DNA of 64,000 bases from assembly GCF_018406645.1 (NCBI RefSeq), contig NZ_AP024546.1:1922001-1986000 (forward strand), written 5' to 3'. Made by a program: the position numbers and the translations under genes. Shown here piece by piece: positions 62,831 through 64,000 of this stretch. Under the pieces are notes generated by a model, which saw nothing but the letters and a program-made list of their open reading frames with translations, did no database searches and had not been told where the DNA came from. Position 1 is the first letter of the stretch; every line of letters starts with the position of its first letter. Source of the DNA: Lysobacter helvus (GTDB taxonomy: Bacteria; Pseudomonadota; Gammaproteobacteria; Xanthomonadales; Xanthomonadaceae).

Positions 62831-62897
62831 GGGGGCCGTCGTTCCGCGTTTGCCCGCCGGGGCGGCCCATGCGACCATGCGCGCGCTTCCGCAGCAT

Positions 62898-63114
62898 TGC
62901 CGCGTGGGAGAGACCGGTTCGCCGGCGCCGAAGGAGCAACCGCCCCGGAAACTCTCAGGCAAAAGGACCTCGCGGCAAACACAATCTGAAAAGTGACCGT
63001 CGGTTCTTCGCGCGTCGCGCCCCGGGATCCTCCCCCTCCGGTGCCTGACACCCCTGTACGCGAATCCGTTTCGGCCCGCCGAAGGAGTAACGCTCTCAGG
63101 CGAATCGACAGATG
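62898..63114 (+). promoter_or_regulatory. tandem glycine riboswitch upstream of gcvP
   Basis: The 217-base leader carries two glycine aptamers. Aptamer 1 (62898-62977) has a 7-bp P1 (TGCCGCG/CGCGGCA), GGGAGAG, a CCGG-TTCG-CCGG hairpin, GCCGAAGGAGCAA and ACTCTCAGGCAAAAGGACC. Aptamer 2 (62984-63113) pairs ATCTG with CAGAT and retains GCCGAAGGAG-TAAC and CTCTCAGGCGAA. The canonical GAGAG of its P2 is AAAAG, and its first hairpin is long. Glycine binding would switch gcvP expression. Confidence 0.9.
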
Positions 63115-63144
63115 GGGCGCTCCTCTCACTCCGGGCGCGCCTGC

Positions 63145-64000
63145 ATGAAAACCCCCTTCGATACCCGCAATGAATTCATCGCGCGCCACATCGGCCCGCG
63201 CGACGCCGACACGCGCGCCATGCTCGAGACGCTGGGTTATGCCTCGCTCGATGCGCTGACCGACAGCGTCGTCCCCGGCAGCATCCGTGGCAGCAGCGTG
63301 CTGCCGGCCGGCGAAGGCCTGGGCGAAGCCGAAGCGCTCGCGATGCTGCGCGGCATCGCCGACCGGAACAGCGTCCTGCGCAGCTTCATCGGCCAGGGCT
63401 ACTACAACACGCACACCCCGGCGCCGATCCTGCGCAACCTGCTCGAGAACCCCGCGTGGTACACGGCCTACACGCCGTACCAGCCGGAGATCTCGCAGGG
63501 CCGCCTGGAAGCGCTGCTCAACTTCCAGACGCTGGTCAGCGACCTCACCGGCATGGAAATCGCCAACGCGTCGCTGCTCGACGAAGGCACCGCCGTCGCC
63601 GAGGCGATGACGTTCTGCAAGCGCCTGTCGAAGAACAAGGCCGCCAACGCGTTCTTCGTGTCCAACCACTGCCATCCGCAGACCATCGACGTCGTGCGCA
63701 CGCGCGCCGAACCGCTGGGCATCGAGGTCGTCGTCGGCGACGAAGGCGACCTGGCGGACGTGTCGAAGTTCTTCGGCGCGGTGTTCCAGTACCCGGCGAC
63801 CAACGGCGACGTCGTCGACCTGCGCGCGCTGGTCGAAAAATTCCACGCAGTGAACGCGCTCGTCGCCGTCTCGGCCGACCTGCTCGCGCTCACGCTGCTC
63901 ACGCCGCCGGGCGAATTCGGCGCGGACCTGGCCATCGGCAGCGCGCAGCGCTTCGGCGTGCCGCTCGGTTTCGGCGGCCCGCACGCGGCGTACTTCGCGA
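63145..64000 (+). CDS. gcvP: glycine dehydrogenase (decarboxylating) GcvP, N-terminal part
   Basis: The first 285 codons of the P protein of the glycine cleavage system, which decarboxylates glycine with PLP. The window edge cuts the gene, so the PLP lysine in the second half is not seen. The start is [20 protein letters not shown], with [45 protein letters not shown] and [15 protein letters not shown]. The gene is controlled by the riboswitch 31 bases upstream. T and H proteins are not in the window. Confidence 0.93.

Follow-up and report, generated by a model that had tools for sequence, protein, structure and literature searches.

We identified the leader of gcvP in the window (the whole stretch of 64,000 nucleotides of Lysobacter helvus DNA that was analysed) as a tandem glycine riboswitch whose second aptamer is a conserved lineage variant and not a broken copy. 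The leader as a whole is probably best explained as a riboswitch that turns gcvP on and joins a canonical aptamer 1 to an aptamer 2 of a "type-2" lineage of Xanthomonadales gcvP leaders. The variant aptamer is the less interesting result; the more interesting one is the C-rich loop at the tip of its P2 arm, which recurs in other genera.

A tandem glycine riboswitch in front of gcvP

The leader and the start of the gene are composed of the following features:

62895–62980, + strand: aptamer 1, canonical (RF00504, 69.3 bits, E 2.8e-14)
62897–62904 with 62969–62978, + strand: aptamer 1 P1
from 62908, + strand: aptamer 1 J1/2, GAGAGA
62927–62960, + strand: aptamer 1 P3
62984–63113, + strand: aptamer 2, type-2 lineage variant (RF00504, 23 bits; hold-out model R1, 67.8 bits)
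62984–62988, + strand: aptamer 2 P1 5' strand, ATCTG (R1 register; same in 5 genomes)
62989–62995, + strand: aptamer 2 J1/2, AAAAGTG, which contains AAAAG (unpaired in the Rfam and R1 structures; 5/5 genomes)
62996–63076, + strand: expanded P2 arm, a single long hairpin of 81 nt (similar predicted fold in 5 species)
63029–63036, + strand: C-rich apical loop CCTCCCCC (5/5 species, mostly unpaired; recurs in other genera)
63078–63101, + strand: aptamer 2 P3, ligand-binding core, without a P3b hairpin (intact; same in 5 genomes)
63109–63113, + strand: aptamer 2 P1 3' strand, CAGAT (R1 register)
63112–63146, + strand: putative hairpin that would block translation, formed by ATGGGGCGC and the GCGCC..CAT of the gcvP start region (predicted)
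63145–63999, + strand: gcvP, 5' part, running off the window (TIGR00461, E 1.3e-117; ATG at 63145)

The RF00504 search proposed in the first-pass annotation, together with the gene match, placed gcvP directly 3' of a tandem glycine riboswitch, as that annotation had claimed. Aptamer 1 lies above the RF00504 gathering score of 32; aptamer 2 alone, at 23 bits, does not reach it and is thus off-consensus, as had been noticed from the letters. With a glycine-related gene downstream, and because a lineage model built without the genus gives aptamer 2 67.8 bits, the tandem as a whole is assigned from its sequence to the RF00504 glycine riboswitches, with aptamer 2 as a lineage variant. A second aptamer below the Rfam cut-off means that such tandem leaders can be read as single-aptamer or degenerate ones.

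The gene and its leader differ in their affinities. The GcvP of the window shares 79% identity with a Pseudomonas GcvP and about 60% with the GcvPs of its own family, including proteins behind other type-2 leaders; the leader is of the Xanthomonadales type despite the Pseudomonas-like protein. The Pseudomonas gcvP genes examined stand close behind gcvH, without such a leader. The gcvP behind the riboswitch may have been replaced during evolution.

Aptamer 2 belongs to a lineage of its own

Type 1, to which most of the family's gcvP leaders belong, combines a divergent aptamer 1 with a canonical aptamer 2. Type 2 is the reverse: its first aptamer is canonical, and its second is divergent, with the P1 ATCTG/CAGATGGGG and no P3b. 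This type was found in the genus of the window and in other Xanthomonadales groups (f3, f11, g23, g2). Aptamer 2 of the window belongs to this lineage, having the short P1 ATCTG/CAGAT, no P3b and a J1/2 in which the second G is replaced by A.

The covariance model R1 was built from 11 type-2 aptamers, leaving out the genus of the window. Its P2 helix shows both-side changes at 5/6 pairs, and its covariation score was reached by 0/500 shuffles. R1 matched aptamer 2 of the window at 62982–63117 (67.8 bits, E 4.5e-15) and that of four sister species at 71.5–72.9 bits. A survey of 397 genomes of the order gave 16 further matches above 74 bits, of which 10 had supplied sequences to the model and 6 were new. 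The R1 alignment placed P1, P2, P3 and the conserved P3 core (63078–63101) in aptamer 2, whose core and junction are identical in 5 genomes of the genus; the Rfam alignment, by comparison, puts the P1 5' strand inside the expanded arm. A strict short-P2 pattern, which does not match the window itself, gave 0 matches in 369 genomes of the class.

Several descriptive points of the first-pass annotation held up well: the letters and positions it gave are correct (AAAAG at 62989–62993, CTCTC at 63093–63097, TTCGCG/CGCGAA arms at 63007–63012 and 63059–63064), the first hairpin of aptamer 2 is indeed expanded (81 nt at 62996–63076), and of the meanings it offered, that of a new variant agrees with the type-2 assignment. 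It had also remarked that no hairpin follows GTAAC; to judge from the hold-out model and its matches across the order, this is normal for the type.

Two more type-2 tandem glycine riboswitches were seen in genome G005, at L020 1490–1740 (contig C40) and L261 (contig C39). The former is followed not by gcvP but by a terminator-like hairpin and an ORF that resembles a TonB-dependent receptor (named by eye), and the latter likewise has no gcvP downstream.

A junction change, not a broken helix

The first-pass annotation took GAGAG and CTCTC to be the two strands of P2, so that AAAAG would disrupt this helix and possibly weaken aptamer 2. Judged by the consensus sequence, the two motifs are indeed complementary. 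The consensus structure of Rfam, however, leaves GAGAG unpaired as J1/2 between P1 and P2, and within P3 the GA and GAG of GCCGAAGGAG base-pair with the CUCUC of CTCTCAGG; the proposed pairing is absent from the structure. Since the P3 that holds CUCUC is intact at 63078–63101, AAAAG breaks no helix, and a model with the Rfam-type structure, built without the genus, fits aptamer 2 at 67.8 bits with P1, P2 and P3 in place. Related aptamers moreover retain GAAAG, also a poor partner for CTCTC, and an AAAAG-to-GAGAG "repair" would address a pairing that is no part of the family structure. A disrupted P2 is therefore very improbable. An extended AAAAGTG/CGCTCTC pairing was dropped too, because CTCTC already pairs in P3. 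Sequence error can be dismissed, as AATCTGAAAAGTG is identical in 5/5 genomes of the genus. AAAAG is thus a junction change fixed in the genus.

The junction varies together with the bases opposite to it. Type-1 aptamers of the family have GAGAG with GGA (126 rows). The type-2 set has GAAAG with ATA or CGA (11 rows), AAAAG with AGA (4 rows) or CGA (1 row, the window) and GAGAG with AGA (1 row); 4 further rows of the count were chance regular-expression matches or a misassigned leader (L018). GAAAG, not GAGAG, stands in 11/12 of the related type-2 rows. Of the 17 rows without G as the opposing base, 16 carry A at J1/2 position 3; these rows are related and do not represent independent events. 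In the aligned sequences the change at position 3 accordingly accompanies the loss of the opposing G, as expected from the homopurine pair (G-G/A-A) that was predicted in 2007, if this pair is placed, as we infer, between J1/2 positions 1–3 and the three bases preceding the P1 3' strand. The counts thereby add phylogenetic support to that prediction. In the window itself, the A at position 3 is opposed by C and not by another A. The G-to-A change at position 1 is private to its genus, and AAAAG is identical in all 5 genomes. Both features count against the preferred explanation of the leader.

Does aptamer 2 still bind glycine?

Because its P3 core is intact, aptamer 2 most likely still binds glycine. 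Aptamer 2 might instead be decaying towards a "ghost aptamer" that has lost glycine binding and supports aptamer 1 through P1 and tertiary contacts. Its score below the Rfam cut-off and the extra J1/2 substitution in the genus would agree with such decay, and GCV leaders often carry ghost aptamers beside a 3' position (PMC6944388). A ghost, however, retains mainly P1 and loses the binding core, whereas here no part of the P3 core is missing and its sequence does not differ among five species, although the P2 arm varies. We regard decay as unlikely and retain a glycine-binding aptamer 2 as the preferred reading.

A possible switching mechanism

Since gcvP breaks down glycine, an ON switch would be expected, and the leader is most likely a glycine ON switch for gcvP translation. 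ON control has been discussed for GCV riboswitches in general, which are expected to act in this way (PMC6944388). In the absence of glycine, the ATGGGGCGC strand, which overlaps and follows the P1 3' side, would pair with GCGCC..CAT and block translation at the gcvP start. Glycine would then dock both aptamers and fix P1, freeing the start, and the C-rich loop of the long P2 arm would probably help by holding a G-rich strand. The blocking hairpin has a predicted energy of -16.2 kcal/mol in the window and of -16.2 to -20.0 kcal/mol in the four other species. A63112 and T63113 belong both to the P1 3' strand and to this hairpin, so that a stabilised P1 would be expected to loosen it through the two-base overlap. 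Against the ON model, -16.2 kcal/mol looks high for a P1 of 5 bp to compete with.

Also against the model, the post-P1 strand and the start region did not pair more strongly across the family than strands swapped between genera (-13.8 versus -13.2, sd 0.4; not significant). Matching two-sided changes exist in some genera, GGGCATCC/GGATGCC versus GGGCGCC/GGACGCCC. In the g57, g70 and g73 leaders (for example L139, L231 and L211), the post-P1 CGGGCATCC is perfectly complementary to the GGATGCC that lies shortly ahead of the gcvP start; this is possibly a translation-blocking hairpin altered on both sides, which replaces GGGCGCC/GGACGCCC.

A recurrent C-rich loop

The 81-nt P2 arm is the unusual feature of aptamer 2 in the window. 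It folds as one long hairpin in 5/5 species of the genus despite sequence variation (predicted -25 to -37 kcal/mol), and its apical loop shows CCUCCCCC in all of them, with a predicted unpaired probability of 0.74–1.00 for CCTCCCCC.

A search for the motif elsewhere in the family unexpectedly found it on a different arm. CCTCCCC occurs in the aptamer 2 P3b stretch of 49/148 type-1 leaders, representing 19/35 genera; dinucleotide shuffles of the same stretch gave 2.3 leaders and 2.1 genera (maxima 8 and 6 in 300). The test was not blind, the motif having been spotted in some leaders before the count, and its margin is wide. No excess was seen in P2, upstream or downstream of the same leaders. 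Within the P3b hairpins the motif has a mean unpaired probability of 0.82, compared with 0.49 for the whole stretch, and exceeds 0.8 in 31/49. Mapped onto a GcvP tree of 43 leaders, the CCTCCCC label requires a minimum of 6 changes, of which well-supported branches force 3. The motif was not seen among the f12 leaders examined, and a literature search that reached few subscription articles found no published report of such a loop. In the leaders of g11 and g17 (L123, L200, L219 and others) and in L018 and L253 (g14), the aptamer 2 P3b loop has ACCTCGTCC or TTCCTCGTCCCC instead of CCTCCCC; the loop motifs may be related.

The genome of the window contains 93 CCTCCCCC sites on both strands, whereas the reversed pattern occurs 36 times. 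Among 30 of the 93 CCTCCCCC sites, a second family of C-loop hairpins did not clearly emerge, and at some of them the motif forms the stem of a palindrome. In this genome (G000) the motif often lies in closely spaced inverted pairs, CCTCCCCC..GGGGGAGG, which resemble palindromic hairpins, for example at C1:61303-61321, 2413833-2413853 and 2494670-2494689.

Possible partners of the C-rich loop

A G-rich strand is the probable pairing partner of the C-rich loop, and cis and trans roles appear about equally likely. As the motif can sit on either of two arms, its exposure seems to count for more than its position. We tentatively propose, with somewhat less than even confidence, that in glycine riboswitches of Xanthomonadaceae a peripheral arm of aptamer 2 (P3b or P2) exposes a CCUCCCC loop, which pairs with a G-rich strand in cis or trans and so links glycine sensing to the translation of gcvP or other mRNAs.

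The obvious partner in cis is the GGGG immediately after P1, and two species of the genus combine GATGGGG with a loop stretch, CCCCATC, that complements it exactly. Lineages with GAGCGGG retain the same C-rich loop, and no covariation of the loop with the G-rich strand after P1 was detected. A duplex scan did not single out one cis partner; its hits were mostly upstream stretches rich in G, either conserved or due to chance, and GGTGGGAG of aptamer 1 was a frequent one.

Alternatively, the leader or a piece of it might act in trans by pairing with G-rich sites on other RNAs, or the loop might bind a protein. The position of the motif on differing arms (P2 in the window, P3b elsewhere) fits an exposed site better than a fixed contact. 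No cis partner was seen to covary with the loop, and sX13, an sRNA known from these bacteria, acts on 4G motifs through C-rich loops (PMC3771888). However, any partner RNA or protein would be hypothetical, a G-rich strand adjoins P1 in every leader examined, and cobalamin riboswitches use their C-rich loop in cis; we consider the trans role possible but less likely than not. Should the loop prove functional, it would represent a lineage-specific addition to a well-studied riboswitch. That it occurs on two arms makes its mode testable, as a fixed tertiary contact or simply an exposed pairing site.

Comparison with known systems

The leader resembles the tandem RF00504 riboswitches upstream of glycine cleavage genes in its two serial aptamers, P1/P2/P3 architecture, conserved P3 core and downstream gcvP. 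Its aptamer 2 differs by AAAAG in J1/2, the missing P3b, the 81-nt P2 arm with the C-rich loop and the Rfam score below the cut-off. With the type-2 gcvP leaders of other Xanthomonadales (L024, L027, L030, L143-L150) it has in common the canonical aptamer 1 and an aptamer 2 with ATCTG/CAGATGGGG and no P3b; those leaders differ in their GAAAG junction, with G at J1/2 position 1, and in a short P2 without the C-rich loop. As in the singlet riboswitches with a ghost aptamer (PMC6944388), one domain matches Rfam and the other is sub-threshold, but the second domain of the window keeps the full P3 core.

In cobalamin riboswitches a C-rich aptamer loop pairs with a strand outside the core (PMC2258182), and the loop described here is likewise an aptamer loop free to do so, although the aptamers are unrelated and the partner is proven for cobalamin and putative for the glycine leader. 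The Xanthomonadaceae sRNA sX13, which targets 4G motifs near start codons (PMC3771888), is a separate trans-acting RNA and no riboswitch, but it carries C-rich apical loops as well and belongs to the same bacterial family.
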